From an uncultured Pseudomonadota bacterium (GTDB lineage: Bacteria > Pseudomonadota > Gammaproteobacteria > Methylococcales > Methylomonadaceae): a stretch of DNA of 64,000 bases. This document shows positions 2,912 through 57,581 of this stretch, in pieces (the first letter of the stretch is position 1; every line of letters begins with the position of its first letter). The position numbers and the translations under genes are program-made. The stretch covers positions 1-64,000 of the forward strand of contig CAILJB010000045.1 in assembly GCA_903834465.1 (NCBI GenBank), given 5' to 3'. The notes below the pieces were generated by a model. The model saw only the letters and a list, made by a program, of their open reading frames with translations. It ran no database searches and was not told the origin of the DNA.

Positions 2912-2968
2912 AATGCTATGACACAGAATCATGTAGTTTCATTACTCAAAATTTAGGAATTGAAAATT

Positions 2969-3202: not shown

Positions 3203-3209
3203 TTAACGT

Positions 3210-3248
3210 ATCAACAGAGCAGTGAAAACATATCATATTTTGACTGCT
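3210..3248 (+). repeat. Hairpin-forming inverted repeat after DUF2188 gene
   Basis: GAGCAGTGAAAA and TTTTGACTGCTC form a 12-base stem with one mismatch around a short AT-rich loop. There is no clear T tract after it, so it is a weak terminator at best. The rest of 3203-3329 shows no other structure. Confidence 0.4.
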
Positions 3249-3329
3249 CGTCTAATTTCAAATTTTCATCATCAACAAAGCCACAACATAACCTACCCAA
3301 AAAAATTCAACTCAGAGTAAGCCACCACG

Positions 3330-3503
3330 ATGAAAAACCTAAAATATCTCATTTACCGCGAAGGCGATTATTACGTTTCACAATGTTTAAACGTCGAAGT
3401 GGCAAGTTTTGGCTCAACGATTGATGAAGCTCTGGCAAACTTAAAAGAAGCAACCGAACTTTATTATTTTGAAGATGCGAAAGTCGCGCAATTAGCCGCT
3501 TAG
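3330..3503 (+). CDS. HicB-like antitoxin (57 aa, solitary)
   Basis: A short open frame (MKNLKYLIYREGDYYVSQCL...) with the HicB/DUF1902-type partial RNase H fold: strand, GDYYVSQCLNVEVASFG, then STIDEALANLKEATELY and a short tail. HicB proteins neutralise HicA toxins, but no HicA (a roughly 60-residue dsRBD-like protein) is seen on either side. It could be an orphan antitoxin or one acting in trans. The C-terminal DNA-binding domain of longer HicB proteins is absent, as in many short members. A weak inverted repeat, GAGTAGC/GCTACTC, follows the stop. Confidence 0.65.
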   Translation: MKNLKYLIYREGDYYVSQCLNVEVASFGSTIDEALANLKEATELYYFEDAKVAQLAA

Positions 3504-3635
3504 GTTTTGATGAGTAGCCGTTATAGAATTGCTACTCGTTGAATGTTTAAATCTAATCATGAATGAAAACCAATAAAACGAAATAACAAATCTTTTGCTA
3601 AACTTAGCGTTTTTTTAGCCTATTGGACTTTTCTT

Positions 3636-4376: not shown

Positions 4377-4392
4377 GTACAAGCCTAAAAAT

Positions 4393-4830
4393 TTAAGGCA
4401 ACTCAGCAATACGATTAGGTTTAGAAAAGCCCACGCCAAAACATGGCTGTTTTGAAAACTCAATCGCATAACGCTCAATATCATCGATATAATGTGCAAA
4501 CTGAATGCCATAACAATAATCCGTATTTTCACGAATTACTTTTGCGTCATATTCAAACAATTTGCCGTTTAAGCACAAACTTACACAAATAGTACGATTC
4601 GGAGCCAATTTTTGATAATCATCCAACGCAATCAACGAACCGGTCGCGCTTAAATTCAGTAACTGAATAGGATGTTCATTACAAGAGAACAACCTTTTTT
4701 CACGCACGGCGGCGATGACATGCAATTTGTTAGAATGTAAAAAACGGATACTAAAACGACGATCTGCAGGAAATGCTTTTAATGAATTGTAAGAAAATAG
4801 GTGGGAATTATTAGCTTTACTTGAATACAT
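4393..4830 (-). CDS. PilZ-domain protein
   Basis: A 145-residue protein with a PilZ c-di-GMP-binding core: the RRFSIR box (RxxxR) near residue 24 and LNLSATGSLIAL near 59-70, corresponding to the (D/N)xSxxG motif. The first position is Asn rather than Asp, which many functional PilZ domains tolerate. No other domain is visible, so it probably acts as a stand-alone adaptor responding to c-di-GMP. The ATG at 4830 has AGAGG about 8 bases upstream; the in-frame GTG at 4839 is less likely. It is monocistronic, convergent with trmJ and divergent from the formate dehydrogenase operon. Confidence 0.8.
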   Translation of the reverse strand: MYSSKANNSHLFSYNSLKAFPADRRFSIRFLHSNKLHVIAAVREKRLFSCNEHPIQLLNLSATGSLIALDDYQKLAPNRTICVSLCLNGKLFEYDAKVIRENTDYCYGIQFAHYIDDIERYAIEFSKQPCFGVGFSKPNRIAELP

Positions 4831-4839
4831 GACTTGCAC

Positions 4840-5088
4840 CTCTTTTTAATCATTTAGTTAACAAAAACAAATAGATAAATCTAAGTAACTACCACTAACT
4901 TGTTTGTGATTCTAATCCTTTAACCGCATTATGGCAATGTAACACGACGGTAAAAAGCATTCTTTCACGTTGGTCGTAGTATTTTTTATAGCTTCATAAC
5001 TGTGCTATTCTATCGCCGAATTTTTAATGATAATTTGTAATTAAAATATAGTTGTTTTAAATAAACAGAACCTCGACAGCGAGCAACC
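4840..5088 (+). promoter_or_regulatory. Divergent promoter region, PilZ gene / fds operon
   Basis: This 249-base AT-rich non-coding gap must hold the promoter of the formate dehydrogenase operon. ACGAC (4944-4948) and GTCGT (4973-4977) form a loose inverted repeat about 25 bases apart. A TATTCT-like -10 hexamer lies near 5005-5010. I see no sigma-54 box. The promoter assignment is by position only. Confidence 0.4.
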
Positions 5089-5556
5089 ATGACACAAATA
5101 ACGATGATGCAGACCGTGCAGACGATAGTCGAAGGTCTCAAAGATAAACCGGGCGCACTTTTACCGATTCTACACGGCATACAAAATGCTCTTGGATATG
5201 TTCCCCCTGAAAGCGTTGGAACAATTGCTAAAGCGTTGAATCTCTCCCGCGCTGAAGTACATGGCGTGATTAGTTTTTATCATTATTTCCGTGACCACGC
5301 GCCAGGCAAAAAAACGGTGCGTATTTGTCGCGCTGAATCGTGTTTAGCGATGGGTGGCAAAGCCTTAGAAAGCCACGTCAAAACAAAATTAGGTATCGAT
5401 TATCACGAAACTACAGCAGACGGTAAATTCTCATTAGAAGCAGTTTATTGTTTAGGAAATTGTGCCTGTTCGCCTGCAATTCAAATTGATAATGCCGTTT
5501 ATGGTCGCGTGACAGCCGAATCGTTTAACGAAATTTTGACGGAGCAATCAGCATGA
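5089..5556 (+). CDS. fdsG: NAD-dependent formate dehydrogenase gamma subunit
   Basis: A 155-residue thioredoxin-fold [2Fe-2S] subunit homologous to NuoE. It shows HGIQNALGYVPPE near residue 30, HGVISFYHYF near 58, and the four cluster cysteines in CRAESC (near 80-85) and CLGNCACSP (near 121). With FdsB it forms the diaphorase module that passes electrons from formate to NAD+. It is the first gene of fdsG-fdsB-fdsA-fdhD-fdsD, and its stop overlaps the fdsB start by four bases. The ATG at 5089 fits the family N-terminus although its ribosome site is weak. Confidence 0.92.
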   Translation: MTQITMMQTVQTIVEGLKDKPGALLPILHGIQNALGYVPPESVGTIAKALNLSRAEVHGVISFYHYFRDHAPGKKTVRICRAESCLAMGGKALESHVKTKLGIDYHETTADGKFSLEAVYCLGNCACSPAIQIDNAVYGRVTAESFNEILTEQSA

Positions 5557-32116: not shown

Positions 32117-33619
32117 TTATTTTGGTCTCATGTGCGGGAATAACAACACGTCACGAATTGATGGCGAATCGGTAAATAACATCACCAATCTGTCGATACC
32201 AATGCCCTCACCTGCTGTGGGCGGCATGCCGTGTTCAAGCGCGGTAATGTAATCTGCATCAAAGTGCATGGCTTCATCGTCGCCAGCTTCTTTTTCGTTC
32301 ACTTGTTGTTGGAAACGCGCCGCTTGGTCTTCGGCATCATTTAATTCTGTAAAACCGTTTGCAATTTCACGTCCACCGACGAAAAATTCAAATCTATCGG
32401 TAACGTGTGGGTCATTATCATTACGACGTGCAAGCGGTGAAACCTCGACAGGATACGCGGTAATAAACGTTGGATTCATCAAACGGCTTTCAACGGTTTT
32501 TTCAAAAATTTCGATTTGAATTTTGCCCAAACCGTAACCGTCTTTGACAGGAATTCTTAAATTTTCTGCCACGATTAAAGCCGCTTCACGAGTTGAAATA
32601 TTTTCAGCCGTCAAATCAGGATTGAAATGCAAAATCGAATCAAACACCGTCATTCGCACAAACGGTTTGCCGAAATCGTATTCTTCGCCTTGATAAGTGA
32701 TTACGGTTTGCCCTAAAACTTCCTCAGCAATGCCGCGCAACATTTCTTCCGTTAAATCCATGAGTTCATGATATTCGGCATAGGCTTGATAAAATTCGAG
32801 CATCGTGAATTCAGGATTATGGCGCGTTGATAAACCTTCGTTTCTGAAATTACGGTTAATCTCAAACACTCGCTCAAAGCCGCCGACGACTAAACGTTTT
32901 AAATACAATTCTGGCGCAATTCGCAAGAACATATCCATGTCGAGCGCGTTGTGATGCGTGGTAAAAGGTCGCGCTGTCGCACCACCTGGGATGACTTGCA
33001 TCATCGGCGTTTCAACTTCTAAAAATGCGCGTTCAATCAAAAAATTCCGAATATAGCCAACCACTTTCGAGCGAATCAAAAACGTATTGCGCGATTCTTG
33101 GCTCATGATTAAATCTAAATATCGTTGGCGATATTTGATTTCTTGGTCAGCAATGCCGTGGAATTTTTCGGGCAATGGACGCAAGGCTTTGGTGAGTAAG
33201 CGAATGCTATCAACTTTTACACTGAGTTCACCCGTTTGGGTTTTGAACAAAACTCCTTCTGCGCCCAAAATATCGCCGATGTCCCATTTTTTGAATTGGT
33301 CGTTATAAACGCCTTCAGGTAAATTATCTCGCGCCACATAAACCTGTAATTGCCCTGACATGTCTTGCAAATGACTAAAACTCGCTTTACCCATAATGCG
33401 GCGTGTCATCATGCGACCTGCGATTTTTACACGCAAATGTTCGGTTTCGAGTTCTTCTTTGGTTTTTTCGCCATACTTTGCGAGCAATTCACCTGCAACC
33501 ACGTCGCGGCGGAAATCGGTTGGAAAAGCAATGGTTTCTTCGCGCAACGCGGTTAATTTTTCACGGCGTTGGCGGATTTGGTCTTGTTCGTCTTGGAGTA
33601 TTTCTTGTGGTTCTGTCAT
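32117..33619 (-). CDS. lysS: Lysyl-tRNA synthetase (class II)
   Basis: A 500-residue class II synthetase: an N-terminal OB-fold anticodon-binding domain (~55-150, [18 protein letters not shown]), motif 1 ([16 protein letters not shown]), motif 2 ([20 protein letters not shown] near 262) and motif 3 ([13 protein letters not shown] near 470). It charges tRNA-Lys. The length is normal. In E. coli prfB usually precedes lysS; here it follows a DUF4276 gene with a 39-base gap. Confidence 0.96.
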
Positions 33620-33658: not shown

Positions 33659-34252
33659 TTAACACAACGTAAGTTGTTCAATCATTTTTTCGGTGTTTAT
33701 TTCTTGTCTTATCAAATGATCAATTCCTTTAATAAAACAATTAAAACTATGGGAATGGTTTTGGTGAATATTCATGTGACTAGCAATTTTTTTAGCCCCA
33801 CTCACTTTACGATAACCTTTAACTAATTTTGCTAGTTCCTCTGACGCATTGGTTAATTTATCGGGATCTTTGTATTTTCTATTTTGTTGTTGCCCAGCTA
33901 ATTTTTTAATGTCAAAGGCTTTTTCAACTGCGGCTAAATCACCCAAAAACCAAGATTCCAATTCATGACAAGCAATGCGAACTAGACTATCAGCACGTCC
34001 AGCTTGCTGACATAAACTAACAAGACGTTTTTTCAGAATAATACAATCTTCCTTATCTTTATCACGAATAATTACAAATAAGGCTGGCGTTTGCCAAGCT
34101 CGTAACTTCCGTGGAATGGATTTCTCTAAATCTTGTTTGCCTTGATGAGGTACACAAAGAAAATCAGTCTCTGACGGTAAAATCTGTGGTAGTAAAACAT
34201 CTAGTAAAGCCTTCATGGATTCTTCCTCTAGCAAAAATACTAGTTGTGTCAT
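33659..34252 (-). CDS. DUF4276 (TOPRIM-like) protein, partner of upstream ATPase
   Basis: A 197-residue protein matching DUF4276: VFLLEEESMKALLDVLLP at the start, FVIIRDKDKEDC near residue 77 and ACHELESWFLGD near 108. An early glutamate and a later DxD-type motif suggest a TOPRIM-like metal site. Such proteins nearly always accompany an AAA ATPase of the OLD/RecF-like kind, and the pairs are suspected anti-phage or abortive-infection modules. Here the start overlaps the ATPase stop (ATGA). The nuclease activity and defence role are inferred. Confidence 0.75.
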   Translation of the reverse strand: MTQLVFLLEEESMKALLDVLLPQILPSETDFLCVPHQGKQDLEKSIPRKLRAWQTPALFVIIRDKDKEDCIILKKRLVSLCQQAGRADSLVRIACHELESWFLGDLAAVEKAFDIKKLAGQQQNRKYKDPDKLTNASEELAKLVKGYRKVSGAKKIASHMNIHQNHSHSFNCFIKGIDHLIRQEINTEKMIEQLTLC

Positions 34253-35436
34253 GAAGGATTAACTCCTGTAAATAGATTCTGTTTCCATAAAGCTCCTGGC
34301 AAATCTCCCTCGTTGATTAGGTTTACTAATAATGGATTGTCACTTGCTCGTTCAATAACTGTAATACCTTGTTTTTTTGATAAACAAAAAATCTCGTGAA
34401 GCGTAATGTAATTCAAGACATCAGGCGAATGCGTTGAAATCATGACTTGTCCACCTTTATCAGCATAATCACGAAACTCTTCTACCAAACCACAAAACAA
34501 GCTCGGATATAACTGATTTTCTGGTTCTTCCACACACAACAAGGGATGTGGATTAGGATCATGTAGCAATAAAAGATATGCAAACATTTTAATGGTGCCA
34601 TCTGAAACAGAGCGGGCAATAAATGGGTCTTTAAAAGCACCATCTTGAAATTTTAAAAGAATGCGACCGTCATCTGTGTCTACCGCTTCAACTTTTGAAA
34701 CACCTGGTACACGCTCTGCCATTTTCTTTAAAATAATTTTAAAAATGTCTGGGTGATTTTCGTACAGATACTGAGCAACTAGTGGCATGTTTTCACCACG
34801 AGTAGAAAGATGTTCAGCATAACCCGCTTCTTGGCTAGGTCTTGCATCGCCGATATGAAAATCTGAAACGTGCCAACTTTCAATCAGCTTACGGAAACTA
34901 TTCGCGGCTTTAAATCGTTGAAATTGACCTAAACCCTTTAAGGCTAGAATATCTGGCGAATCAACAGTTTGTTCTTCTTTAGTTTCCTTAGATTCTTTAT
35001 CTTCGTAGCTACTTTCATTAGTAATCGCCATTCCTGAACCTTTTTTAAAATCCAAGAAATGCCAAGGCTGTCCTTTCGCCCCTCTTCTATATTTAAGAAT
35101 TTCCCGCGCAACAACAGGTTGATTATTATCCAATTCAATGATCAGAGAATAAGTAACCAAAGGGCTATGTGTCCTATCATCGTATTCTCGAAATTTAATC
35201 TCGATTTCAATCGCCCCTTTTTCACCGCGTGTTATCACTTCTTTAAAGCCACCACGTTTTTGAAGTGCAACACGCACATTATCTTGCAATGAGTCACGCA
35301 AAAAACCAAAGACATCAAATAGCGTTGTTTTGCCTGTTCCGTTTGCACCGATAAAAACAGAAATAGCAGGTAAATTGGTTAATTTAATATCTTTAAAGGC
35401 TTTAAAATTCTTAACACGCAAGGCTTCTATTTTCAT
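34249..35436 (-). CDS. AAA ATPase of the OLD/RecF-like family (defence-type, partner of DUF4276)
   Basis: A 395-residue SMC/RecF-like ATPase. It has an N-terminal MKIEALRVKNFKAFKD strand and Walker A GANGTGKTT near residue 31, and a charged middle region with KESKETKEE. The signature SVSDGTIKMFAYLLLL lies near 290, Walker B LLCVEEPENQLYP near 310 and the switch histidine STHSPDVLN near 350. There is no fused nuclease; the DUF4276 gene overlapping its stop probably supplies it. The neighbours (cysN upstream, lysS downstream) are housekeeping, so the pair looks inserted. It resembles ATPases of AbiL/PARIS-class systems in architecture only. Confidence 0.78.
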   Translation of the reverse strand: MKIEALRVKNFKAFKDIKLTNLPAISVFIGANGTGKTTLFDVFGFLRDSLQDNVRVALQKRGGFKEVITRGEKGAIEIEIKFREYDDRTHSPLVTYSLIIELDNNQPVVAREILKYRRGAKGQPWHFLDFKKGSGMAITNESSYEDKESKETKEEQTVDSPDILALKGLGQFQRFKAANSFRKLIESWHVSDFHIGDARPSQEAGYAEHLSTRGENMPLVAQYLYENHPDIFKIILKKMAERVPGVSKVEAVDTDDGRILLKFQDGAFKDPFIARSVSDGTIKMFAYLLLLHDPNPHPLLCVEEPENQLYPSLFCGLVEEFRDYADKGGQVMISTHSPDVLNYITLHEIFCLSKKQGITVIERASDNPLLVNLINEGDLPGALWKQNLFTGVNPS

Positions 35437-37106: not shown

Positions 37107-37607
37107 CTAATTGGTGCGAATAAGCCCAGCTTCTTGTGCTAATTGTTCATTCATTAGCCGAATCCATGCGCCTTTTAAATTCCAAAGTTTTGCAGTCAGT
37201 TTTAATTGTTTTTGTAATTCATCTTTTAAGGGGGCTAACCAATCTTTTTGATGATTTTTTATAATTAAAACAAAAACAGGCTCTATTTTAGATAAATCTA
37301 ATTGCTTAAATTTAGATGAAAGCTCGTTGTTGTCATAACGTTGTATGTAAATTGAATTAAATAATGTCAGACTATGAATGAACTTTATTTTGATTTCTGC
37401 AATATATTCATCAAAGCGTGGTTGCGTAGTTTGTTGAGGAGATGTCAGTTTAGCTTCTATAACCCATAGCTGATTTTTTCTAAGTAATAAACATTCAGCG
37501 ACTTTTACACCTTGAGTTTGTACCGTTTGATAAACATTGCTTGTTTCAATTCGAAAACAAAATTCATCATCAAATTTAAATGACATGCCTGATTCGGTGA
37601 ATTCCAT
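37107..37607 (-). CDS. Unknown protein with nuclease-like motif, partner of AAA ATPase
   Basis: A 166-residue protein with no family I can name. A stretch near residues 35-55 reads [20 protein letters not shown], which resembles the E-x(n)-(E/Q)xK core of PD-(D/E)xK nucleases. The rest is helical, with several aromatic-hydrophobic segments. It starts 5 bases after the AAA ATPase stop, so the pair is likely one module. The nuclease call is a motif-level inference; a regulatory subunit is equally possible. It ends 23 bases before cysN. Confidence 0.5.
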
Positions 37608-37612
37608 ATAAG

Positions 37613-38710
37613 TTATAAGCCTATCTCTTGTTTATATAATCGAATCGACTCATCAATAATCGGATTATCAGGCATATCATCTAACAAGTCAGATTGCACC
37701 CATTCATCATTTTGATAAGAAAGCACAGGAATAGACATTTTCTGTTCTTGTGCGATTAAAAACAGTTTTTTAATAACGAAATAAGAATGACTAGCTAGAA
37801 AAAATTGAATTCCATGATTTGCCAGTATGGCGATAATATCAAGCAATTGAGAAATAGCTTGTGGATGCAAATTAGATTCTGGTTCATCAATGAAAATAAT
37901 GGATTTTTCACTTAAATAACCATTGCCTAATAATGTGTCCAAAATAGCAATTTTTTTGATTCCTTCAGCAGTTACGCCCATTGGAAATCGTTGTTCGTTT
38001 TTTATGAAATACCATCGTTTACTCGCGTCATCAAACTCTACGCGACCTCCAATCATTATTTCTAAATCCTTTCTCGATTTATTGAAATCGCTGGAATTAT
38101 GTCCTTTAACTAACAATTTCTGAGTAGATAAGGAATTTAATTGAGGTGCCATATCGTCATCATTCCAATAATCTTCCTGTACTTTTACCATTTGTTTTGC
38201 AGCCACTTGCAAAGCCAAGGCTAACTCAAAATAGGTATTATCAAACCCAAGTAATATATCTAGTTGTCTTGACCTTAGAATGAGGTTGTATAACGATAAA
38301 ACTTCTTTTGCAGGCAAAAAAATGGAATTTTCGATACGAGGAGATACTTGATTATCTAATGATTTGAAATTCTTTGTTTTAGTAGAATCTTTGTCAAGAC
38401 TATAACTGAATTTTTTTTCATCAATTAACAAACTACACACTAAATCACTATTGCTTGTTCCTCTCATTAAATGACTAATTTTTTCTGGCTGAAAAGTCCA
38501 ATACAACTTATCTGCCAAAATTTCCCGTTCGTCGTACGGATTATCACCGCGCTTATATTCTTCCAAAGTACGGACAGAACAATATAGAGCTTTAAGCAAA
38601 AACGACTTACCACAACCATTGTTGCCAATGATTAAGTTGATTTTGCTTAAATTCTGCCAATCCAACTGTTCTATTGGCCCGAAATTTTTTAGCTCTACGC
38701 GGTTAATCAT
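37613..38710 (-). CDS. AAA ATPase (AAA15/RecF-like), second defence-type pair
   Basis: A 365-residue ATPase: MINRVELKNFGPIEQLDWQ, Walker A IGNNGCGKSF near residue 28, a helical middle region, Walker B IIFIDEPESNLHP near 275 and the switch SHSYFVIKK near 310. It differs clearly in sequence from the ATPase at 34-35 kb, so it is not a recent duplicate. It is followed 5 bases later by the putative nuclease. It sits exactly between cysD (3-base gap) and cysN, genes that are usually adjacent. A defence or DNA-maintenance role is inferred. Confidence 0.75.
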   Translation of the reverse strand: MINRVELKNFGPIEQLDWQNLSKINLIIGNNGCGKSFLLKALYCSVRTLEEYKRGDNPYDEREILADKLYWTFQPEKISHLMRGTSNSDLVCSLLIDEKKFSYSLDKDSTKTKNFKSLDNQVSPRIENSIFLPAKEVLSLYNLILRSRQLDILLGFDNTYFELALALQVAAKQMVKVQEDYWNDDDMAPQLNSLSTQKLLVKGHNSSDFNKSRKDLEIMIGGRVEFDDASKRWYFIKNEQRFPMGVTAEGIKKIAILDTLLGNGYLSEKSIIFIDEPESNLHPQAISQLLDIIAILANHGIQFFLASHSYFVIKKLFLIAQEQKMSIPVLSYQNDEWVQSDLLDDMPDNPIIDESIRLYKQEIGL

Positions 38711-45705: not shown

Positions 45706-48700
45706 TTAACTGCCGCAGCCTTCTTTGTGTTCGCGCACTTCAGCAACCGTACAGTTTCCATATCCGACTACGTCAGCACTGAGCGAACTCATGACAGATT
45801 TTTTCTTATCTTTGCCGTCATTGTTGTCAGCGGTGTTTGAATTTTTATTGTCTTCGGTCATTTGTGTTGCCGATTTTGCAGCACTGGTAGCCGCACTGCT
45901 TGCGCTTGACGGCACAACAGGTGGTGCAACCGTTGTGGGAACACCGACGCTACCGCCTGATGCCGAAATGTTTGACGCACCGACAACAGCATTTGCCGCA
46001 ATCACAATTTTGCCTCCGCTGATTCCCGCTTCGCCGGCATCAACAATGCCCGATGGTGCAGCGAGATAAACGTTACCTTGTTTTTTAGTGTTGTCCTGAG
46101 GATTGATGGTTTGAATGCCACTGCCAGAAACAACCGGCGGGAAAGTCGTGACGATATTGCCTAACGCATCAATGCTGGTAATCGGTGCAGGGGCAGAAAT
46201 GGCAGACTTCGCACCTTTTCCTGCATCGATATTGCCTTGCGATGACCAAATCGCAATATCCCCGCCGCCCATCGTAAACACGCGCGATTGATTCACGTTG
46301 AAACCACCACTCGTAAACGCGCTAATATCGCCTGATTGTTGCGCGACAATACCGAGTTTATCTGCGCCTTTTTGAATGCCGCCAACCATGCCCGCTAAAC
46401 CAACATTTACCGAGCCATTTGGAATCGCTAAATAAATATCTCCGCCGGCTAAGGTTTTAATTTGACTAAATACTAACGACAAATTACCGGTATTTTTGCT
46501 TAAGGGGAAAAGGGCATTAATTGCATCATAGCCTTTTTGGTAAGCGGCTTTACGTTCATTTTGAGGGGCTACCGCTGCCGTTTCTGCAGATTGTTTGATG
46601 TCATTAAACAGCGTGTCTAACGCCGTTTTATCGATGGCTTCATTTGTACCTGCTAATACCGAAATACTCGCGCCTTCAGCGGACAAAACAGAATTTTTGG
46701 TATTACCGATGGTGTTAATCCCTGCGCTGCCGCCTAAACTGATATTGCGTCTGGCTTGCACTTGCAATTCGCCATCACCACCTAATTCGATTTGTTTATC
46801 GTTACTTTGCACCACACCGTTATCGTTGATAAGTGCGTCAAAAGTGATGTCCCGTCCTGCGCTAATGCTGGTAATGTCTGATGTTTTTAGTTGTTGCGCG
46901 GATAAACTCAAATTTTGAATATCTTTGCCTGCGCTAAACTCGGAGGCTTGCGGGATAAAAAACGTCACATCGGAATTAGATGGAAACGCGATGCTGCCAA
47001 AATTTGCACGAATAATCGGTTTATTCGTATCATTCAAATGCAATGGTTGCGGGGCGTGAATCAATATCGGATTCGGTGTAGAAGGATCGAGGCGTTCACG
47101 CGCGTTGATGATGTTGTCGGCTAAACTGCCTTCTAATTGTTGTGCTGGATGTTGAACATTGGGCAATAAATCAGGATTTGCATCGGACATATTAACGTTA
47201 ATCAATTGCCCCGCCGTGTCATCGACACCGATATTGTTATTCGCTAGCAATGTCAATTTCCCTTGCGCTGATGGAAATAACGTCATGGAATTATCGATGC
47301 GTAAATCACCCGATAATGCGGTGGAATTTAACGTTTGTGGATAAACGGTGTATTCAAAACCGGTTTCTGAATCATTTTCTTGATGTTTGTCGGCTTTAAT
47401 TGCAGCAATATCATTTTGCAAAATCACATTACCTGCGGTGGCAGCAAGGTCAACGGCACTATTCTCGCCATAAGTGAAGAAACGCGAATCACCACCGGCA
47501 GCATTAGGCAATAACACGTTTTGTTTCAAGACAGTTGGATTGAAAACAGAGGCAATATTGATATTTTGTCGCGCTTGAATATTGAAATTTGCATCGCCTA
47601 ATTCAAGCAACGCGCCCAAGTTATTGGTGGTCGAAATCGCAACACTGCCACCGGCATTTAATGTTCCTGTGCCTTTAGCAACGAAATATTCGCCGCCAAC
47701 AATGTCGTTGCCAGCGTTAATATTTAAATTGCCGCCACCATTTACGATGGTGTCATTTTCAGTCCACTGATTTGTTGCCATAGTGCTTAATTTACCAAAC
47801 GGTTTGCCCGTAGTTGGTAACATCACGGATAAATTTTGAACGTCGCCACCGGCGTTAATATTGACATCTCCGCCCCCTAATGCGCCAACATTTTGATTAA
47901 AACTATGGATACCCGTGTCACCCGTATTAGGTTTATCACCACTAAGATTGATTCCCCACGCGGTCGGACGATTGTTTTCATCTATCACACCGCTACGCAC
48001 CAGCCAATCGCTGATTTCTTGTCCTGTATCGATGCCGCTGATATTACCGCCAGCGTTTAAGTTAATTGCCCCGCCGTGCGTTGGATATTCCGCGACACGA
48101 TATTGAAGACCTAACAAATTTTCATCCACATAGCCGTAACGCAATAATGTATTCATTTGCGTTGGATCTAAACGATTGAGGTAATCGGCTTCGCTTTCGC
48201 CTATTTTTTGTGCGGGAACGTTTGGAATTTCACCGTTGAGTAATTGTGTTTTAGTATAAAGTGCTGGTGTACCGGCGGTATAAATTGCCGCTGCGTCGCT
48301 GGGATTTTCACTGTCACTGACAAATTGAATATTGCTACCGGCTTTAATATCGATTTGCCCCGTGCCTGTTCTGACCATCACTTGCGATGCAGAGGATGCC
48401 GCGTTGCCATATTCATCGACCGGAAAATAAGAATTAGCTAGTTTGACATTGCCACCTGCGACAATGTTGTAACTCCAAGATAAACCCGATTGCAATACGT
48501 CTTGGAAAATATTAGACGGGTCTGTGCCAGGCAAATTTGTATTAGCAAACGCATCAGTTATCGACGCATTGATTAACACATCTTTTGCGGCTTTCAATGT
48601 TAAAAATCCAGGTAGTTGAGCTTCACCATAACGCCAATTTAATTCCGTCAGTCCCGTGCTGTCGTTGACATGATTACTCATGAAATCCCAGCCGCTCGAT

Positions 48701-51700
48701 AACGTTAAATCACCATTGCTGCGAATTTCAATTCCCGGTAGCAAACTGATATTCGCGCCGGAATTATTTTGCAAGCGTGGCGCTGCATTCATAAAGTCAG
48801 CGGTTTCCGTTTGCCAAGTGGCAATAGCTGTACTGTCTATGTCGTTTTGATTGTCGTAAACGCGCGTTGCTTCTAAGATTGTTCGCGTTGCATCTGCACC
48901 TTTGATGTTAGTATTTATATCGCTGATATTAACGGTATGTGCGCTGTCATTTCTGCCGGTGCGTAAATGCACTAAACCGCCGTCACCATTTAAACCGCCT
49001 GAAACATCAATTAACGCCCCTTTTGCTGACAAATCCAACAAACCGCTATTTGTGTCATCACGATGAACCGTATCTAACGTCACACTTCCGCCGTTTGAAT
49101 CAGCAGTATTTGTTGTAGCGAGAATTTTTGCGCTCGAACCTAAACTAATGCCATCATGTCCATAAATAGAAACTGAATCCGCTTGTGCGCCGCTGGTGTC
49201 AATTGTTCCGTTTACAACAATTTTTCCTTGATCGGCTGCTAATTCAAATTGGTTCGCTTTAATTTGGTCAGTTGCGGCAATATTTATGTCGCCGCTGTGT
49301 TGTTCTAAATTTAACGATTGACTAAAACCTGCACCGGCTAATTTGCTATTTAACGCGGAGAAATCCCCCAAATTATTCACATCCAAACTTAACGCCCCAG
49401 AATCTGCGCTAATCGAACCATTCCACGCAAATTTTCCCTTCGGAGCAGTAATATTTAATGTGCCGACATGATTGATTGTGGCATTTTGCGCCAGCGTAAT
49501 ATTGCCTTTAGTAGCAGATAATTGCACTGTACCGGCGGGTGAGATTTTATTAACCGAATCGAATGCAACTGTTTTTCCTGAAACATCAATTGCGCTGCCA
49601 TCATTGAGCGCAATATCACCTTGCAACGCATTGAGTTTTAGCGTTCCAGACTGTAAATCAAAACGCCCGCTACTGTTAATGCTATCAGCGGTAATTGCCC
49701 ACGAACCGCCTAAATCATTGGTTTGAGTGGTTGATTGTGTTGGCGAAGCGAGCGTGACATTGTAACCGCTTGCATCAATTTGCGTGGTCGAACCATTATC
49801 GCCCGAAAAACTTGCCGCATTTGCTGTTAAATTCGCTGCTACACGCAAATCACCTGCTGGACTTAAACTACTATTTCCCGTATCTGTGGCAAAAACTTGC
49901 CCTAAACCTTTGAGACTTTCGCTAGCATTGAGATTAACTTGATTGAATCCGCTAATGGCATATTGACCGCTGCCCAATTGAATATTTTTAGCCGTTAAAT
50001 TTAGCGTACCAGTAGCGTTACTATCGCTGGAAGATGTCGCGTTATGATTCGACAACGTGATGTTACCAGCAGTAATCGTCGCCGTTTTATCGGTATTATC
50101 CATGCCTCGAATCGCTGCTGCATCGATTGCCAATTCATTGGTTTTCAAATTTACCGCGCCATAAATATCAAGATCGCTGCGGCTATTTAACTTTAATTCA
50201 TCAAGATTGAACGACGTTGATGACAAGACTAATCCCGATGTGTTAGCCGGCGCATTGCCCAAACTGATACGACTAGCATTTAAAGCTAACGAGCCGCCGT
50301 TCATTGCAATATCGCCGGCAAAAACGGTGTCTTTGGTCGAGTCGAGCAACATCGAATTATCAGATTGCAGTTTCGCGCCTTTTTCGACAATTAAAACGCC
50401 AGCATCGCCCGTCACATTGCCATCGCGTACAACTTCAGTTTGTCCAAACGATGACACGCGCAATAATGCACCATCGCTAGACATTACCGGATTACCGCTG
50501 TTGTCGGCAATAGGATTTCCATTACTGTCAAGGGCTGGCGTGTTACTTGTTACAAACAGTGTTTCGCTAGGCACATTTGTTTTGCCTTGACTGATTACTT
50601 CTGCGCCAGATGCAATTTTCAGCGTATCTTTTGCCGCCAATAATATTTCTGAACCTTGTAAATTCACATCTCCGGCTATCGTTAATGTTTGCGAATTAAC
50701 GGTGATGAGCTGTCCATCTTTGTTTTTACTACGCACACCACCTAACAGCAAACTGGGCGCATTGAGTTTATTCAAATCATCAACGGATAACGTCACCGTA
50801 TCGCCATCGGTAATAACATCTTCCGGGCGACGACCAACAATTGCCAAATGGTCAGCACTAATATCAACTGAACCACCTAACCCGTTGCCAACGGGTTTTG
50901 CATCTAATTCGGCACTTAAAGATAATTTCGTTTGCGCGGCAATCGCTAAACTACCTGCATCCTGAGGTAATTGTGGCGCAATCGTGCCGTTTTGTGCGGC
51001 GTTAGCTGGGAAAAAATCGTTGGCAAAATAATCGGTATATTGGGAATAATCTCGTGCGACACTGCCTTTTTGCACCGCAAAACCTTGCCACCGTGCATCT
51101 TGAATTCCAGCATCCGCTACGCCGTAACGCCCAGCAACAATGGTCGTGCCTGAAATATCGGTTAGCGTTTGATTGGGTTGCCAATCTTGCGTATTAGCTT
51201 GTGGCGTAACTAAGTAAGCATCGGGTAATAACGCATAATGTGCAGGTAAAAGTGTGTACCAACCTGCTGCTAGTCCTGCGCCCGCACTGAGGTAGACACT
51301 GTCACCGACTTTAAGATTAGAATTTGCCGATTCCAGCGGGTCAACTGGCGTAAGCGCATGACCTAAATTCGGTAACACAGCAAATTTTTGATTAGTATTT
51401 AAAATATCGTTCGTGCCACCTGCACCAGTGATAAATTCATACGCATACAAATCGCCGCCACCGTTCAAATTCACGGTTGCACCTTTATCTAACGCGACTT
51501 CTTTACCGGTGAGTGTTAAACGTTTTTCGGGCGGCGTGGCAACCACTAACGCTACACTCGCTTGAGCATCAAACGGATACAACCAATTTAATCCGCCTGA
51601 ACCTTGTCCGAATGGCACGGTTACGCCATCACCAGAAACAGACGTTACGCTTCCTGTTGCTAAATGTAATTGATTAGTAGCATTAAGATTTAGCGTACCG

Positions 51701-54700
51701 AATGGGACTTTAAGTGTGCCGTTTTGATTGATATTTGCCGCATTGATACTTAACAAACCAGCGGCAGAATAAACCGGTGTTGCAACTGAGCCGCTGTGAT
51801 TGATGGTGACGGTGCTGCTGTCACCGCCGATAGAAAATTTATAATTACTCAATGTGGCGGGATAAACCTGCGCGGCAGTAAGCGTTAAATCGCCGTCTAA
51901 TTTGAATTCACCTAAATAATCTTTACTATCTGTGCGAACACGAATGCCTTGGGTGCGAATATCCCCATCACTAGCCAAATTAACTTGATTAAAACCGTTA
52001 AAACTCAAGCCACCGATTAAATCAATATTTTTCGCCGCAACTGAAAATTTGCCTTGTCCGCTCATTGCCGCCGGTGCAAGCGTACTGGAAAATGTGCCAT
52101 CACCTAAATCGGTATCTAATCGACTTTTACTTGAACCCAATGCCGCGTAAGCGGTATTTAATTGCACATTGCCATTGCTGGTTTGCAATTGTGGCGTATC
52201 TAAAATGATTTGTTTTGCTGCATTCAGCGTAACATCACCGTTAAATAAAATACTGCCTGCATAATCACCACTCGCACCGATAACATCGGTTTTAAACGCT
52301 AACGATGCAAACCCCGCATTGTTGAGTTGCTGGCTATTTAATAACGCGCGACCGCTGTAATTTTCCGAGGCAAGTTCATCGCCTTGATGCACGGTCGTTG
52401 CAAGATTTGGCGTAACGACGGTTGTGATTTCAATGGTGCGAGGCAAAGCATTATTTTCATCATCAGGAAATAATCCACCGCTAATTGCCACATCCGGTTT
52501 GTTGCGTAAACCACTATTTAATTCAACCGATAACGAACCACCTGCCGCACCATCGCCGCCTTTCGCTTGAAAATTACCATCAGCAATTATGCCTTCGCCT
52601 GCTTTCAAACTAATCGTGCCACCGGGTGACGCGATGTTTTGGCTCACAAACGTTGAACCTTGTGGAATATCGAGTTTTTTTGAACTGCCCGACACATCAA
52701 TGGCGGATTGCGTACGCGTAACGATATAACCGCGTTTTGCCGTTAATGAAATATTGCCACCTGCTAAAACATCGCCCATTGTTAAATTTAACGAATTAAG
52801 TTTTGGTTTGAACACACCTTGCGCGATTAAGCGACTATCTGAACTAAGCCAAATGCCTTGCGAGGCAAAAAAACCTGTATCGCCACCACTGGGCGTATTC
52901 AGTGTTAAATTGATATTCCCCGCTGGCGCGTTAATCGTACCATTGATAAAAATTGAGGTGTCCGAATTTAGGTTAATCGTGGCTTGTGTATCGCCTTGAA
53001 TCGATGCACCTTTGCCAAGCGTTAAGGATTCGGCGCGATTTTGTGCTAACAGTTCACTAAAGGACAATGTGAGATTGGTTGGATTCCGCAATTCGTCCGG
53101 CAAAATAATGGCTGTGCCAATATCAGTTAAATGACTGCCCGTTGCTTTGGTAGAGGCATCGCCGTTAAGTTGAATATTTTGTTGTTGTAGTTTGAGTTGC
53201 GCGTTATTGGCAATTGTTAAACCATAAACGCTAGAGCTAACATCGTAAGACGCAAACCCGTTTTGCTGGAAAAAATCAGGATTTAAAATCAACGGTTGCG
53301 TAGTTGACGCATTGCGTTTTGGCGCATCACTCGCGTTTCCAATCACAACTTCATTGCTACTCAAACGTAAACTGCCACCTTGATTGATGCCAAAGCCGGA
53401 AAGTTTCCCATCTAAAATTAGATTCGCATTTTGTCCCCCCGCGTCATGATTGGCAGCGGCTAAATCAATGGCACCTGCTTTTCCAGCTGTGATTTTATTA
53501 TTACTGTTCAACCACGCGCCACCACTGACATCAATGCGACTACCGGTTGTTAAATGTAAATCACCTTGTTCGGCATGAAGAATGACTGAGCCGCCATCGA
53601 GAGCTAATGGATTCAACGTGTTATCTGTGCTGTCATTTGTCCATAATCCGGCAACATCGATAACCGCAGAATTTCCTAACGTAATCGGATTTGGCAACAA
53701 ATTACCGTCAATTTTAATCGGCTCGAAATCAACTTTTCCGGATGGCGAAATAATCGAACCTTGCACATCAAACCCCGTTGCTGCAATTTTCAAATTCGCA
53801 TTAGTGGGCAAATTCACCACCGCATTTTGAGCAATATTGACCGCATCATTGGTTTTAATATCGATGTTTGAAATGCCTGCCTTTTGAAATGTATTGGCGG
53901 CTAAATTTAACGCAATGGGATTTGTTGAATTTTTCGCATTTCTGGGTAGAGCATCTGTTGCACTCATTGCCGTTGGATTCGCTGTTTCTGAGAAATCAAT
54001 AGCTTGTTTGCTTAACAAATTGTTATTACTTAAATCCAACGATAAGGAACTGCCAGCAGCTTGTTGAGCGGCGGTACGTTGATAAATACCGGCAACCGTT
54101 TCGCCTTTTAATGTCCCATCTAATACAGCCTCATAACTGTTAATGGTTAATGAACCGCCTTGTTTTCCTTCCACATAACCTGACGCGACATAAGAACTCG
54201 TAGTGATACCATTGTAAGTACGATTTGGATCAGCCGTTGCAATGGGAAATACTTGCCCGTTGGAGGTGAGTTGCGTGGTAGTAATATTGCCATCTTGATA
54301 TTTGATTGAACCACCCGAAAAATCCAATGTACTTTGGGCTTGCGTGATAACATCACCGCTAGATTTAAGCGTAATGCTTCCACCGCTGGTGCTGCGTTCA
54401 TCAATGTTACGAGCAATGCGGTCAACGGCACCTTTTATGTCGGCAATCGGAACCGTTGCGCTGGTTAAATTACCGCTACTGTCTTTGGTTAGCGTTGCAT
54501 CACGAACATCAACAGAAATTGTTGATCCATACAAAATCCCGTCACGTTGTAACGGTGAATCGCGTAATTCATTTTTACGAAGTTCAACTTGAACAACATT
54601 ACTTTCCATTGGAAAAATGACATCTTTTACACCTGAAACATCGACTTTACTGCCTGCGTCTAAATAAATTCGTGCATCACCTTTTTGGGTACTGTCCGTA

Positions 54701-55917
54701 GGATTATCGATTGCCGTGATATTGACTTGCCCTGATTTCGCTTCGACAACGGAACTATTATCTAAAACAACATCGTGTGCGCTGATTTCAATTTGTGACG
54801 GCGTTTGGGCTTGTGCATCGATAGCCGTATCACTTTTGTTACTGTCTAAATCTACGCTGGTGCGACTATCGCTACTCAAATGTACAGTAGCTTTTGTACC
54901 TAAACCATCACCTAAATCTTCCGTTCTCACAGTGCCTTTGGGTAATAATTTTCCACCTGTCCCCGCAGGGTCTTGGATACCTTCACGCGCTAATAAGCGA
55001 ACTGAACCATTGAGGCGCACCGAAGTCGTCGCTGAAACACTGCCTTTTTGATTGACTGCAAAACCCAGCAAACTCACGTTGCCACGTTCCGCAAGCACTT
55101 TACCGACATTATCAACTTCGCCGCCCGTACCAACTTCAACCAATAAACCGCGTGTTGACGAATCACTGCTCGCTTCTTGCAAGTAGACTTTATCTTTAGC
55201 GGCGGCAAGAATGGCTTGTCCATCTGGCGTTTCAATTGTGCCTTCATTATCAATGCTCGGCGCGGCAATAATAACTCGTCCGCCTGCTGCATTGGTTTTG
55301 ATACTCGCACCTTTGGCGACAATAATTTGAATTTTAATCGGGTCGCCGTGAGCATCTTTAAGCGGATTACCGTTGTTATCTTTGAGATAAATTTCGCCAT
55401 TGCCTTGCAACGCCGCCGTGCCATTAGTATCAAAGGCTTTCGTGATACCTTGTTGAAAAACATCGTTACTAATTCCCAACGTCGTCGCAACTAAAGAATT
55501 TACATTCACCTGCGAATTTTCACCAAACACAAAACCGTTTTGATTGACCAAATACACCTGCCCATTTGCCGAAATCGTCCCCATGATTTTGCTGGCATCG
55601 GCTTGATGAATATTATTTAATGCTACTGAACTCGTGGATGGTTGCTCAAAACGTACGCTGTTTTCTACGCCAACATTAAATTTTTGCCAATCTAAAACGG
55701 CTTTATCACTGCTTTGGTGAATGGTCATGTTTTGACCTGAAATCGATGCAGCAGCTTGACCTTGCGTCGCAATATCGACGGGCGTATTTGATAACGTGAC
55801 ATTGGCGGTGGGAACGGGCAACTCACCCGCATTCACTTGAATGTTAAACATCACACCACCCGCGATAAGTGTGCGAATGGCAATGACTAATGGTTTAAGA
55901 GAATAGTGTTTCGTCAT
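45706..55917 (-). CDS. Giant filamentous-haemagglutinin-like exoprotein (TpsA)
   Basis: About 3,403 residues. A signal peptide (~1-30) is followed by a two-partner-secretion domain (~33-300) with GQVYLVNQNGFVFGENSQV near 120 and LVATTLGIS, related to the NPNG/NPNL motifs. Thousands of residues of right-handed beta-helix follow, with recurring short repeats of the types GxIxLxA, SGTLxLxA and GxVxIxA. The C-terminus is a charged linker (TEDNKNSNTADNNDGKDKKK) and an end with two cysteines (YGNCTVAEVREHKEGCGS) that could form a loop anchoring the protein to its transporter. No toxin domain is evident. The start is ATG at 55917; a TTG at 55923 overlaps the transporter stop. Confidence 0.9.
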   Translation of the reverse strand: MTKHYSLKPLVIAIRTLIAGGVMFNIQVNAGELPVPTANVTLSNTPVDIATQGQAAASISGQNMTIHQSSDKAVLDWQKFNVGVENSVRFEQPSTSSVALNNIHQADASKIMGTISANGQVYLVNQNGFVFGENSQVNVNSLVATTLGISNDVFQQGITKAFDTNGTAALQGNGEIYLKDNNGNPLKDAHGDPIKIQIIVAKGASIKTNAAGGRVIIAAPSIDNEGTIETPDGQAILAAAKDKVYLQEASSDSSTRGLLVEVGTGGEVDNVGKVLAERGNVSLLGFAVNQKGSVSATTSVRLNGSVRLLAREGIQDPAGTGGKLLPKGTVRTEDLGDGLGTKATVHLSSDSRTSVDLDSNKSDTAIDAQAQTPSQIEISAHDVVLDNSSVVEAKSGQVNITAIDNPTDSTQKGDARIYLDAGSKVDVSGVKDVIFPMESNVVQVELRKNELRDSPLQRDGILYGSTISVDVRDATLTKDSSGNLTSATVPIADIKGAVDRIARNIDERSTSGGSITLKSSGDVITQAQSTLDFSGGSIKYQDGNITTTQLTSNGQVFPIATADPNRTYNGITTSSYVASGYVEGKQGGSLTINSYEAVLDGTLKGETVAGIYQRTAAQQAAGSSLSLDLSNNNLLSKQAIDFSETANPTAMSATDALPRNAKNSTNPIALNLAANTFQKAGISNIDIKTNDAVNIAQNAVVNLPTNANLKIAATGFDVQGSIISPSGKVDFEPIKIDGNLLPNPITLGNSAVIDVAGLWTNDSTDNTLNPLALDGGSVILHAEQGDLHLTTGSRIDVSGGAWLNSNNKITAGKAGAIDLAAANHDAGGQNANLILDGKLSGFGINQGGSLRLSSNEVVIGNASDAPKRNASTTQPLILNPDFFQQNGFASYDVSSSVYGLTIANNAQLKLQQQNIQLNGDASTKATGSHLTDIGTAIILPDELRNPTNLTLSFSELLAQNRAESLTLGKGASIQGDTQATINLNSDTSIFINGTINAPAGNINLTLNTPSGGDTGFFASQGIWLSSDSRLIAQGVFKPKLNSLNLTMGDVLAGGNISLTAKRGYIVTRTQSAIDVSGSSKKLDIPQGSTFVSQNIASPGGTISLKAGEGIIADGNFQAKGGDGAAGGSLSVELNSGLRNKPDVAISGGLFPDDENNALPRTIEITTVVTPNLATTVHQGDELASENYSGRALLNSQQLNNAGFASLAFKTDVIGASGDYAGSILFNGDVTLNAAKQIILDTPQLQTSNGNVQLNTAYAALGSSKSRLDTDLGDGTFSSTLAPAAMSGQGKFSVAAKNIDLIGGLSFNGFNQVNLASDGDIRTQGIRVRTDSKDYLGEFKLDGDLTLTAAQVYPATLSNYKFSIGGDSSTVTINHSGSVATPVYSAAGLLSINAANINQNGTLKVPFGTLNLNATNQLHLATGSVTSVSGDGVTVPFGQGSGGLNWLYPFDAQASVALVVATPPEKRLTLTGKEVALDKGATVNLNGGGDLYAYEFITGAGGTNDILNTNQKFAVLPNLGHALTPVDPLESANSNLKVGDSVYLSAGAGLAAGWYTLLPAHYALLPDAYLVTPQANTQDWQPNQTLTDISGTTIVAGRYGVADAGIQDARWQGFAVQKGSVARDYSQYTDYFANDFFPANAAQNGTIAPQLPQDAGSLAIAAQTKLSLSAELDAKPVGNGLGGSVDISADHLAIVGRRPEDVITDGDTVTLSVDDLNKLNAPSLLLGGVRSKNKDGQLITVNSQTLTIAGDVNLQGSEILLAAKDTLKIASGAEVISQGKTNVPSETLFVTSNTPALDSNGNPIADNSGNPVMSSDGALLRVSSFGQTEVVRDGNVTGDAGVLIVEKGAKLQSDNSMLLDSTKDTVFAGDIAMNGGSLALNASRISLGNAPANTSGLVLSSTSFNLDELKLNSRSDLDIYGAVNLKTNELAIDAAAIRGMDNTDKTATITAGNITLSNHNATSSSDSNATGTLNLTAKNIQLGSGQYAISGFNQVNLNASESLKGLGQVFATDTGNSSLSPAGDLRVAANLTANAASFSGDNGSTTQIDASGYNVTLASPTQSTTQTNDLGGSWAITADSINSSGRFDLQSGTLKLNALQGDIALNDGSAIDVSGKTVAFDSVNKISPAGTVQLSATKGNITLAQNATINHVGTLNITAPKGKFAWNGSISADSGALSLDVNNLGDFSALNSKLAGAGFSQSLNLEQHSGDINIAATDQIKANQFELAADQGKIVVNGTIDTSGAQADSVSIYGHDGISLGSSAKILATTNTADSNGGSVTLDTVHRDDTNSGLLDLSAKGALIDVSGGLNGDGGLVHLRTGRNDSAHTVNISDINTNIKGADATRTILEATRVYDNQNDIDSTAIATWQTETADFMNAAPRLQNNSGANISLLPGIEIRSNGDLTLSSGWDFMSNHVNDSTGLTELNWRYGEAQLPGFLTLKAAKDVLINASITDAFANTNLPGTDPSNIFQDVLQSGLSWSYNIVAGGNVKLANSYFPVDEYGNAASSASQVMVRTGTGQIDIKAGSNIQFVSDSENPSDAAAIYTAGTPALYTKTQLLNGEIPNVPAQKIGESEADYLNRLDPTQMNTLLRYGYVDENLLGLQYRVAEYPTHGGAINLNAGGNISGIDTGQEISDWLVRSGVIDENNRPTAWGINLSGDKPNTGDTGIHSFNQNVGALGGGDVNINAGGDVQNLSVMLPTTGKPFGKLSTMATNQWTENDTIVNGGGNLNINAGNDIVGGEYFVAKGTGTLNAGGSVAISTTNNLGALLELGDANFNIQARQNINIASVFNPTVLKQNVLLPNAAGGDSRFFTYGENSAVDLAATAGNVILQNDIAAIKADKHQENDSETGFEYTVYPQTLNSTALSGDLRIDNSMTLFPSAQGKLTLLANNNIGVDDTAGQLINVNMSDANPDLLPNVQHPAQQLEGSLADNIINARERLDPSTPNPILIHAPQPLHLNDTNKPIIRANFGSIAFPSNSDVTFFIPQASEFSAGKDIQNLSLSAQQLKTSDITSISAGRDITFDALINDNGVVQSNDKQIELGGDGELQVQARRNISLGGSAGINTIGNTKNSVLSAEGASISVLAGTNEAIDKTALDTLFNDIKQSAETAAVAPQNERKAAYQKGYDAINALFPLSKNTGNLSLVFSQIKTLAGGDIYLAIPNGSVNVGLAGMVGGIQKGADKLGIVAQQSGDISAFTSGGFNVNQSRVFTMGGGDIAIWSSQGNIDAGKGAKSAISAPAPITSIDALGNIVTTFPPVVSGSGIQTINPQDNTKKQGNVYLAAPSGIVDAGEAGISGGKIVIAANAVVGASNISASGGSVGVPTTVAPPVVPSSASSAATSAAKSATQMTEDNKNSNTADNNDGKDKKKSVMSSLSADVVGYGNCTVAEVREHKEGCGS

Positions 55918-55919
55918 AA

Positions 55920-57581
55920 TCAAAACTCGTACGCAAAGCGGAAATCAATCCGTTGATTACCCGCATTCACCGTGCCTTGGCTATACAACGGAAATGCCCA
56001 ATCCAGTTCGCTGACAAAATGTTTGAATAATTGCATCCGTAAACCAACCCCTGTGCCGGCGAGTTTGTAATTGGACGGATTAGGCACGAGCGGTTTTTGA
56101 ACCCAAAGATAACCGTAATCCAAAAAGGCGTGTGCGCGTAAATTTTGAGCAAAATCCCATTGGTTTAATGCAGGGCTTTGTAATTCAAAAGAGAGGTTCG
56201 CCCCGTCATCGCCTAATTGTTGGGTTTGATAATAACCGCGCACACTTTGTTGACCACCGACTGCAAATTGCTCATTGCTGATTAACGGTGAATTTGCAAG
56301 TTGTCCCGATGCGCGAGCGGCTAAACGTAAATCCCACGGTAACGTCTGTAAATGTTTAAGTTCACTGGTTAGATATAAATAATCGGCTTTTGCGCCAGCC
56401 CGTTTTTGAGCGAATTCTTGCGCGTCATTGCCTAAACCGCGCACTGAAAAATGTATCGCCGAACTAAGCGATGTGACGGACGTTTCAGAACGCCAATTGC
56501 CGTCGTAACCTACTTGAAAACCCGCATAACTAATCGGTGTATTTTGAGTATCTTGACCTTGCGTTTTAACGCCTTGATTGAAGTCTTTGTAATCAAAACC
56601 GGCGGTTAAACTGTGGTTGTAATCGTTCAGAGTCGTTAACGGCAACATCAAACGCGCCCCGTAAATTGTGCCTGCTCCGACGACTGATAACCCGCCGACA
56701 CTTGTACCGAGTTGCGTATTGGAACTAATGCCAATGCCATACAACGCTAAACGTGAATCACGCCAACCGGTTGGTAACACATAAGTGCCTGACCATACAT
56801 CGACTTCATTATTATTTTCGGGCGAAACTTGATATTGCAACGACGCGCTGTGAAAACGCTGCCACAAATTATCGTAACGAATTGAACCAATTAAACGGCT
56901 GCGGCTGGTGTGTTCAGAATTGCGACCATTCATTTCAACGCTACCATGCAGCGGCAAATTATCTTTCACACGCAATTCCACTTCGGTTTTTCCCGGTGTT
57001 GAACCAGCACGAAACACCGGCGTGACTTGTCTATCGGAAGATTCTTTACTTAACGCGCTGATTTGCTCTTGCACGGCTGGCATGTAAGGTACTTGACCCG
57101 CTTCGAGTGCGGGTAGATTTTCACGAATTTTTCCTAAGTAAAAATAACGTGAACCGGTGATTTTTAAATGTTCAACAGAACCTTCCACCACTTTCAAACG
57201 GACGATATTTTCAACCACATCTTGTTCTGGAATTTCAACTAAAACGGTTGGATAACCTTTGTTTTTGTAAAGGGTTTCTAAGGTTTGACGTGCTTTTTCA
57301 ACATCTTCAACCGATTTTTTTGTTCCTAAAAATGGATACAACGTTTTTTCGATTAACGAGCTGTCTAAAACGGTATTGCCATCAACTTGTAATTCAAATA
57401 AATCAAAGTCAGGACGTGCTTCAGGTTGTGCAGTCGTTGTTGACGTATTGTTTGGTAATTCTTCTGCTGATAATGATGTTGAACACAACAAAAAAACGAT
57501 AAGGTACAAATAATTTTGTAGCCCATAATTTTTAATTCGTACGTTATCCATTTCCACTGTGTTGAGTTTGCTATCCATCAT
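55920..57581 (-). CDS. Two-partner-secretion outer-membrane transporter (TpsB, ShlB/FhaC family)
   Basis: A 553-residue protein with a signal peptide (LIVFLLCSTSLSAEE), two POTRA domains (~60-205; FDLFELQVDGNTVLD, VVENIVRLKVVEGSVEHLKI) and a 16-strand FhaC-type barrel (~215-553). The conserved lid-loop motif VRGY is at 447-450 (QQSVRGYYQ). It secretes the adjacent TpsA across the outer membrane. The gene begins after a strong hairpin and overlaps the tpsA start, the standard transporter-first order. Confidence 0.93.
   Translation of the reverse strand: MMDSKLNTVEMDNVRIKNYGLQNYLYLIVFLLCSTSLSAEELPNNTSTTTAQPEARPDFDLFELQVDGNTVLDSSLIEKTLYPFLGTKKSVEDVEKARQTLETLYKNKGYPTVLVEIPEQDVVENIVRLKVVEGSVEHLKITGSRYFYLGKIRENLPALEAGQVPYMPAVQEQISALSKESSDRQVTPVFRAGSTPGKTEVELRVKDNLPLHGSVEMNGRNSEHTSRSRLIGSIRYDNLWQRFHSASLQYQVSPENNNEVDVWSGTYVLPTGWRDSRLALYGIGISSNTQLGTSVGGLSVVGAGTIYGARLMLPLTTLNDYNHSLTAGFDYKDFNQGVKTQGQDTQNTPISYAGFQVGYDGNWRSETSVTSLSSAIHFSVRGLGNDAQEFAQKRAGAKADYLYLTSELKHLQTLPWDLRLAARASGQLANSPLISNEQFAVGGQQSVRGYYQTQQLGDDGANLSFELQSPALNQWDFAQNLRAHAFLDYGYLWVQKPLVPNPSNYKLAGTGVGLRMQLFKHFVSELDWAFPLYSQGTVNAGNQRIDFRFAYEF

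Follow-up and report, generated by a model that had tools for sequence, protein, structure and literature searches.

The DNA between cysD and cysN in a methanotroph of the family Methylomonadaceae carries two genes, for an ATPase and a 166-residue partner, that we assign to HEC-02, a candidate anti-phage system, by PADLOC models covering nearly the full length of both proteins. The genes lie in the window, by which we mean the whole 64,000-nucleotide stretch of DNA that was analysed; its source genome contains two AMO/pMMO subunit matches. The pair is probably an anti-phage module, an ATPase-controlled PD-(D/E)xK nuclease held in an exchangeable slot between cysD and cysN.

The genes of the region lie on the minus strand in the order cysD, HEC-02 ATPase, 166-residue partner, cysN, HEC-01 ATPase, DUF4276 protein and lysS (Table 1), with successive distances, taken from the coordinates, of 3 bp, 5 bp, 23 bp and 21 bp, a 4-bp overlap and 39 bp. 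The HEC-02 genes, tightly spaced on one strand within the cys operon, have a GC content of about 0.32 compared with 0.41–0.46 in cysD and cysN. In three genomes of the same genus (G128, G096 and G143), about 22 bp separate cysN from the start of lysS; the window therefore has a second insertion there, the HEC-01 pair, whose ATPase has an AAA_21 domain. Other genes were also observed after cysN in the genus (L169, L170, L174–L176; L108, L161, L172). They include a long ORF of about 825 aa, which had no NCBIfam match in L108, the one tested, and what we take to be a photolyase-like ORF. Elsewhere in the window, a very long ORF of 3405 aa occupies positions 45706–55923 on the minus strand.

Table 1. 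Features of the cys region, in positions of the window, with the evidence for each.
Feature	Position	Strand	Evidence
HEC-02 ATPase (HEC-02A here), 365 aa, ABC/OLD-type	37613..38710	-	PADLOC PDLC04214 9e-144; Pfam AAA_21/AAA_15; model
Walker A GNNGCGKS, residues 29-36 of HEC-02A	38603..38626	-	conservation in 18 family sequences
HEC-02 partner (HEC-02B here), 166 aa, predicted PD-(D/E)xK nuclease	37107..37607	-	PADLOC PDLC04221 1e-54; model; structural neighbours
WVIEAK motif, HEC-02B residues 48-53, with E51 and K53 (LWVIEAK = 47-53)	37449..37466	-	conservation
HEC-02B E38, place of the usual PD-(D/E)xK Asp (putative)	37494..37496	-	83/83 rows
cysD, upstream flank, 3 bp from ATPase start codon	38714..39622	-	NCBIfam NF009214 above cut-off
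cysN, downstream flank, 23 bp past partner stop codon	35458..37083	-	NCBIfam NF003478 above cut-off
HEC-01 ATPase of the second inserted pair (cysN–lysS interval)	34249..35436	-	PADLOC PDLC04144 5e-187
HEC-01 partner, DUF4276	33659..34252	-	Pfam DUF4276 8e-16; PADLOC PDLC04143 7e-73
lysS, flank of second insertion	32117..33619	-	NCBIfam TIGR00499 above cut-off

HEC-02B matched PADLOC model PDLC04221 at 1.3e-54 over residues 2–163 of 166, and all eight of its PADLOC matches were HEC-02 models. HEC-02A matched PDLC04214 at 9.1e-144 over residues 1–364 of 365. The locus thus combines an ATPase-model match, a partner-model match and adjacency (5 bp), and the PADLOC rule for HEC-02, as we understand it, is two adjacent genes. 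The partner looks unassigned in Pfam and NCBIfam because neither shows anything above chance, and the original prediction recognised no family for it; the nearly full-length HEC-02 matches of both proteins overturn that part of the reading, while the part that saw an ATPase with a small nuclease is supported by the model, structural neighbours and motif of the partner. HEC-02B had no match in a PDB sequence search or in phage records and one among plasmids, from Comamonas. A viral structure library gave no match at 1e-3. In PADLOC-DB 2.0.0, the A and B labels of the HEC-01 and HEC-02 models PDLC04143–PDLC04146 are swapped relative to the other models: PDLC04145, labelled HEC-02A, matches the small protein, and PDLC04146, labelled HEC-02B, matches the ATPase. 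HEC denotes Hma-embedded candidate, and the available text of PMC12988326 describes several HECs as active, naming HEC-06. The source preprint is 10.1101/2024.01.29.577857. Mention of HEC was not found in the accessible portion of PMC9252829, nor was a published mechanism for HEC-02 found in the literature searched, as far as its accessible text extends.

The structure of HEC-02B was modelled with AlphaFold2 and 19 relatives (pLDDT 94.7, pTM 0.90). In the model, secondary-structure elements follow the order alpha-beta-beta-alpha-beta, as in PD-(D/E)xK enzymes, and the neighbouring strands 39–43 and 46–53 bear acidic residues and the ExK; a fold unrelated to PD-(D/E)xK, which would have spoken against the nuclease core originally proposed, did not appear. 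Foldseek gave no match at E 1e-3 (best E 0.02), the top rows being cap-snatching endonucleases, with Holliday-junction resolvases and Can2 lower, all above 1e-3. Realignment returned 20 chains at Z ≥ 5, the best at Z 7.2 (Can2, rmsd 3.7, 119 residues), which is below the clear-match range of the tool and, according to the tool, a value that can reflect a common arrangement. The rows comprised Can2 (six), BspD6I (three), Cdn1 (two), EcoO109I, Card1, FokI, BsmI and AF1548, along with two CdiA-CT toxins and two acetyl-CoA carboxylase chains, which do not fit; we take 16 of the 20 to be PD-(D/E)xK nucleases.

Conservation was read from an alignment of 84 relatives, with duplicates and partners below 60 bits left out. 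E38, E51 and A52 were invariant in all 83 rows with a letter at these positions, E21 was kept in 82 of 83, K75 in 83 of 84 and K53 in 80 of 83, with R in the other three. Because these residues are conserved across the relatives, the WVIEAK motif, earlier singled out as a possible nuclease core, is not a chance string. The protein has the conserved acidic residues and (D/E)xK expected of the class, namely E38 and E51-A-K53, plus E21. The usual residue in PD-(D/E)xK enzymes is Asp, where HEC-02B has Glu; from the spacing and the model strands we infer that E38 is its equivalent. HEC-02B is probably a PD-(D/E)xK-like nuclease, a reading that draws on the make-up of the structural-neighbour list together with the conserved residues, the Z values being weak by themselves. 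One copy of the partner (G120, L013) is split into two frames.

HEC-02A has the sequence of an intact ABC-type ATPase. An AAA15-type ATPase with a small partner had been predicted at 37107–38710, both ORFs are present there, and the ATPase matches Pfam AAA_21 (6e-21) and AAA_15 (2e-16). G29, N31, G34, K35, D275, E276 and H308 were invariant in 18 family sequences, and we take residues 29–36 and DE275–276 to be Walker A and Walker B, respectively. The model reached a pLDDT of 80.4, with residues 176–203 unreliable, and its nearest solved folds in Foldseek were PtuA chains of Septu and retrons, followed by Rad50 and SMC heads. Phage records held three distant matches.

The HEC-02 pair was compared with described two-gene systems, and the original view that it does not clearly match Septu, PARIS or Gabija held, as HNH, Toprim and helicase matches of the partner were absent from Pfam, PADLOC and NCBIfam. 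PtuA chains of Septu and retron PtuAB are the top Foldseek rows for the ATPase, yet PtuB of Septu is an HNH nuclease, and Septu was rejected because the partner here lacks an HNH match and its model is PD-(D/E)xK-like. PARIS was rejected because the partner lacks a match to the Toprim of AriB. Gabija, in which GajA has a fused Toprim and GajB is a helicase, was rejected since the ATPase domain covers the 365-residue protein and there is no helicase between cysD and cysN. PD-T4-4, to whose A component HEC-02A is weakly matched in PADLOC (PD-T4-4_A, 1.5e-20), was rejected as no PD-T4-4 nuclease partner is present.

The closest tested design, judged by its published description, is WonAB of Vibrio cholerae, an OLD-type ABC ATPase with a PD-(D/E)xK-like nuclease. 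In the available text on that system, both genes are required, protection is lost in ATPase motif mutants and with K71A in the nuclease, activation comes once phage DNA replication is under way, and the outcome is abortive infection; WonAB is carried on a prophage, whereas the HEC-02 pair sits in a housekeeping operon (PMC12137116). The accessible part of the BREX surveys describes OLD-ABC ATPases paired with PD-(D/E)xK, HNH or PIN nucleases, modules that share the HEC-02 design with alternative nucleases and lie near BREX-type loci; neither a cys-operon slot nor partner swapping was found in that part of the account (PMC12839542).

By analogy with WonAB, an ATPase that senses infection likely releases the nuclease. 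An ABC-type ATPase of the OLD/PtuA kind would hold, or stand ready to release, the small PD-(D/E)xK nuclease; an infection signal would change the state of the ATPase and free it; and the freed nuclease would cut its nucleic acid target, which may be DNA, RNA or tRNA, in a metal-dependent manner; this would halt phage production and probably sacrifice the cell. The module would be expressed together with the cys genes from its chromosomal slot.

Both window proteins match the models of the reference family and share its two-gene order. Of 313 relatives in named genomes, the best 80 were kept, and in 78 of these loci a partner ORF comes after the ATPase; the other two loci reach contig ends. 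These best 80 of 313 span at least a dozen phyla as labelled, some labels possibly being wrong through binning errors because many relatives are MAGs. Around 14 HEC-02 loci away from cysD–cysN, where 84 of 106 neighbour proteins were scanned, the 25 of 102 families listed included BrxL, BrxC, type I R-M and GajB, as well as a reverse-transcriptase defence protein and HEC-01 models at 1e-20. Within the family of the window, the partner was present in 21 of 201 genomes, and it was absent from all 17 other genomes of the genus.

Occupancy of the slot was surveyed in 120 junctions, that is, family genomes in which a single contig carries both cysD and cysN; these came from the best 150 rows per gene in 201 genomes and consequently lean toward relatives of the window. 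Matches to cysD were found in 190 and to cysN in 194 of the 201 genomes, and 30 of the 150 cysD rows were unpaired. The distance between the genes was below 100 bp in 51 genomes, 100–250 bp in 6, 250–600 bp in 29 and 600–6000 bp in 34. With inserts of at least 250 bp in 63 of 120 genomes, cysD–cysN is an insertion hotspot in this methanotroph family. The slot in methanotrophs was not found described in the searched literature, which includes the available portions of PMC8565338, PMC7969007, PMC10853773 and PMC13092281. In Salmonella, the accessible text of PMC11305592 reports a hotspot of CRISPR type I-E beside cysD; defence genes lie next to cysD there as here, but adjacent to it and not between cysD and cysN, and with other cargo.

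Since the pair is built into the cysD–cysN operon, we considered a role in sulfate activation or sulfur control. Its placement on the same strand, tightly spaced inside the operon, would suit such a role, as would the 15 of 20 fetched family HEC-02 loci that adjoin cysN and/or cysD. However, among the 13 of 18 genomes of the genus with a readable slot, 8 were empty (35–39 bp) and the 5 occupied slots held five different cargos: HEC-02, HEC-01, GmrSD, DUF29 and Excalibur. Moreover, the 62 ATPase-tree rows that belong neither to the cysD–cysN clade nor to its two outliers had no cysD or cysN match in the fetched DNA. A sulfur role is thus very improbable.

Cargo was examined in 68 of the 69 junctions with gaps of at least 100 bp, the 69th being the window, by BLAST to representatives with Pfam or PADLOC names. 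The most frequent classes among the 68 inserts were 23S_rRNA_IVP (20), DUF4124/Excalibur (16), HEC-02 (13), HEC-01 (8) and Doc with DUF2281 (7), followed by DUF29 (3), an Mrr-like and Toprim-like pair (3), a PD_DExK protein (2) and one each of DUF4145, HicAB and GmrSD. The term Toprim-like is our own presumptive name for a protein with a weak HEC-01B match. All 109 classified ORFs were oriented as the cys genes, and two inserts of at least 250 bp fit no cargo class. Nuclease, toxin-antitoxin or defence-type genes were present in 30 of the 63 inserts of at least 250 bp, the window counted; about half of the inserts are non-defence (S23, DUF4124/Excalibur, DUF29), and the slot is therefore not devoted to defence only. 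In L168 (oriented 916–5376), three two-gene cassettes stand in tandem: Mrr-like with Toprim-like, HEC-01 and HEC-02. The 23S rRNA intervening-sequence-protein ORFs in L113, L119 and L124 are flanked by inverted repeats of 17–29 nt, an arrangement that resembles IVS elements of 23S rRNA.

The presence of toxin-antitoxin pairs (Doc, HicAB) in the same slot raises the alternative that HEC-02, itself a small, mobile set of two genes, is a toxin-antitoxin-like or selfish pair that maintains itself, with phage defence as a side effect. We consider this unlikely, in view of a large ABC-type ATPase with conserved ATP motifs, the PADLOC classification of HEC-02 as a defence candidate, and the apparent ease of its loss in relatives, where the slot is often empty.

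Two controls place the hotspot in context. At carA–carB in the same family (141 genomes, 120 with both genes on one contig), inserts of at least 250 bp were found in 24 of 120 (Fisher 2e-7 against 63 of 120), and in other gammaproteobacteria none of 21 cysD–cysN junctions from 20 genomes, read by eye, was occupied (largest distance 118 bp; Fisher 1e-6), both p-values treating related genomes as independent. The carA–carB count means that invasion of operon junctions in this family reaches beyond cysD–cysN, which stands out as an extreme example and not as the sole one. By BLAST against the cargo library, HEC-01, HEC-02, S23 and Doc were absent from the 24 carA–carB inserts, which yielded one DUF29 fragment; their cargo (L177–L200) presumably consists of Uma2, RelBE, PIN and IS66 genes.

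The history of HEC-02 in the slot was examined in a tree of 86 ATPases, in which all 20 cysD–cysN rows and two family members from elsewhere formed one fork (99/90), with bootstrap support not fully settled. This topology fits one settlement of the slot followed by two departures. The same fork would be expected of simple vertical descent of an old cysD–cysN insertion with many losses and no exchange at the slot, and ATPase distances partly track those of cysN (r 0.54, Mantel p 0.0005, 13 loci), which counts against pure exchange. Against vertical descent, the identities of ATPase and partner were uncorrelated in the slot (r 0.19, 19 loci), compared with 0.81 elsewhere (64 loci), where the two proteins diverge together and cysD and cysN were not found in the fetched DNA outside the methanotroph family; none of 2000 random subsets gave so low a value. 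Where ATPases shared 75% identity or more, the partners fell below 50% in 6 of 6 slot pairs, versus 20 of 242 pairs elsewhere. By these sequence comparisons, ATPase and nuclease are decoupled within the slot clade.

Individual cases show where the exchange would have occurred. Genomes G088 and G070 have ATPases 98% identical and partners 45% identical. Their DNA identity is 86–100% over DUF29 and the ATPase, drops to 46–73% over the partner and returns to 82–100% in cysN. The drop is abrupt and close to the gene boundary: it begins some 40 bp ahead of the ATPase stop and lasts until shortly before cysN. Between G088 and G077, which belongs to another genus, the partners share 75% identity and the ATPases 63%. 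L008 and L026 are a reverse case, with partners 91% and ATPases 59% identical. These breaks, the lack of correlation and the five cargos of a single genus make descent with losses and no exchange improbable, even less credible to us than the toxin-antitoxin-like reading.

Decayed cysN starts were observed between two cargos in L166 (oriented 2590–2697), L146 (oriented 1514–1630) and L039 (5410–5535), and they fit insertion by homology with the cysN start. L166 is the same contig as L034, and its ATPase frame opens upstream of the cysD end. We lean slightly toward a model of exchange in which cysD–cysN is a fixed slot for small, integrase-less defence cassettes and its HEC-02 pairs mix and match: the ATPase would be kept while homologous recombination between shared flanks would swap in a complete other nuclease, so that new nuclease–sensor combinations arise. 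Cargo at the slot turns over, with cassettes gained, lost and exchanged, and there the nuclease appears to be replaced independently of the ATPase, probably through recombination between those flanks.

A HEC-02 member in an operon slot of methanotrophs is, as far as the literature searched extends, unreported, and partner swapping is the most interesting lead from this locus. The motif, the alignment and the natural swaps raise the question of whether near-identical ATPases with different nucleases give different phage protection. Defence genes can turn over within a biosynthetic operon that is itself conserved, a setting that defence-island searches would overlook, and the interval from cysD to cysN offers a simple place to seek further small systems in methanotrophs.
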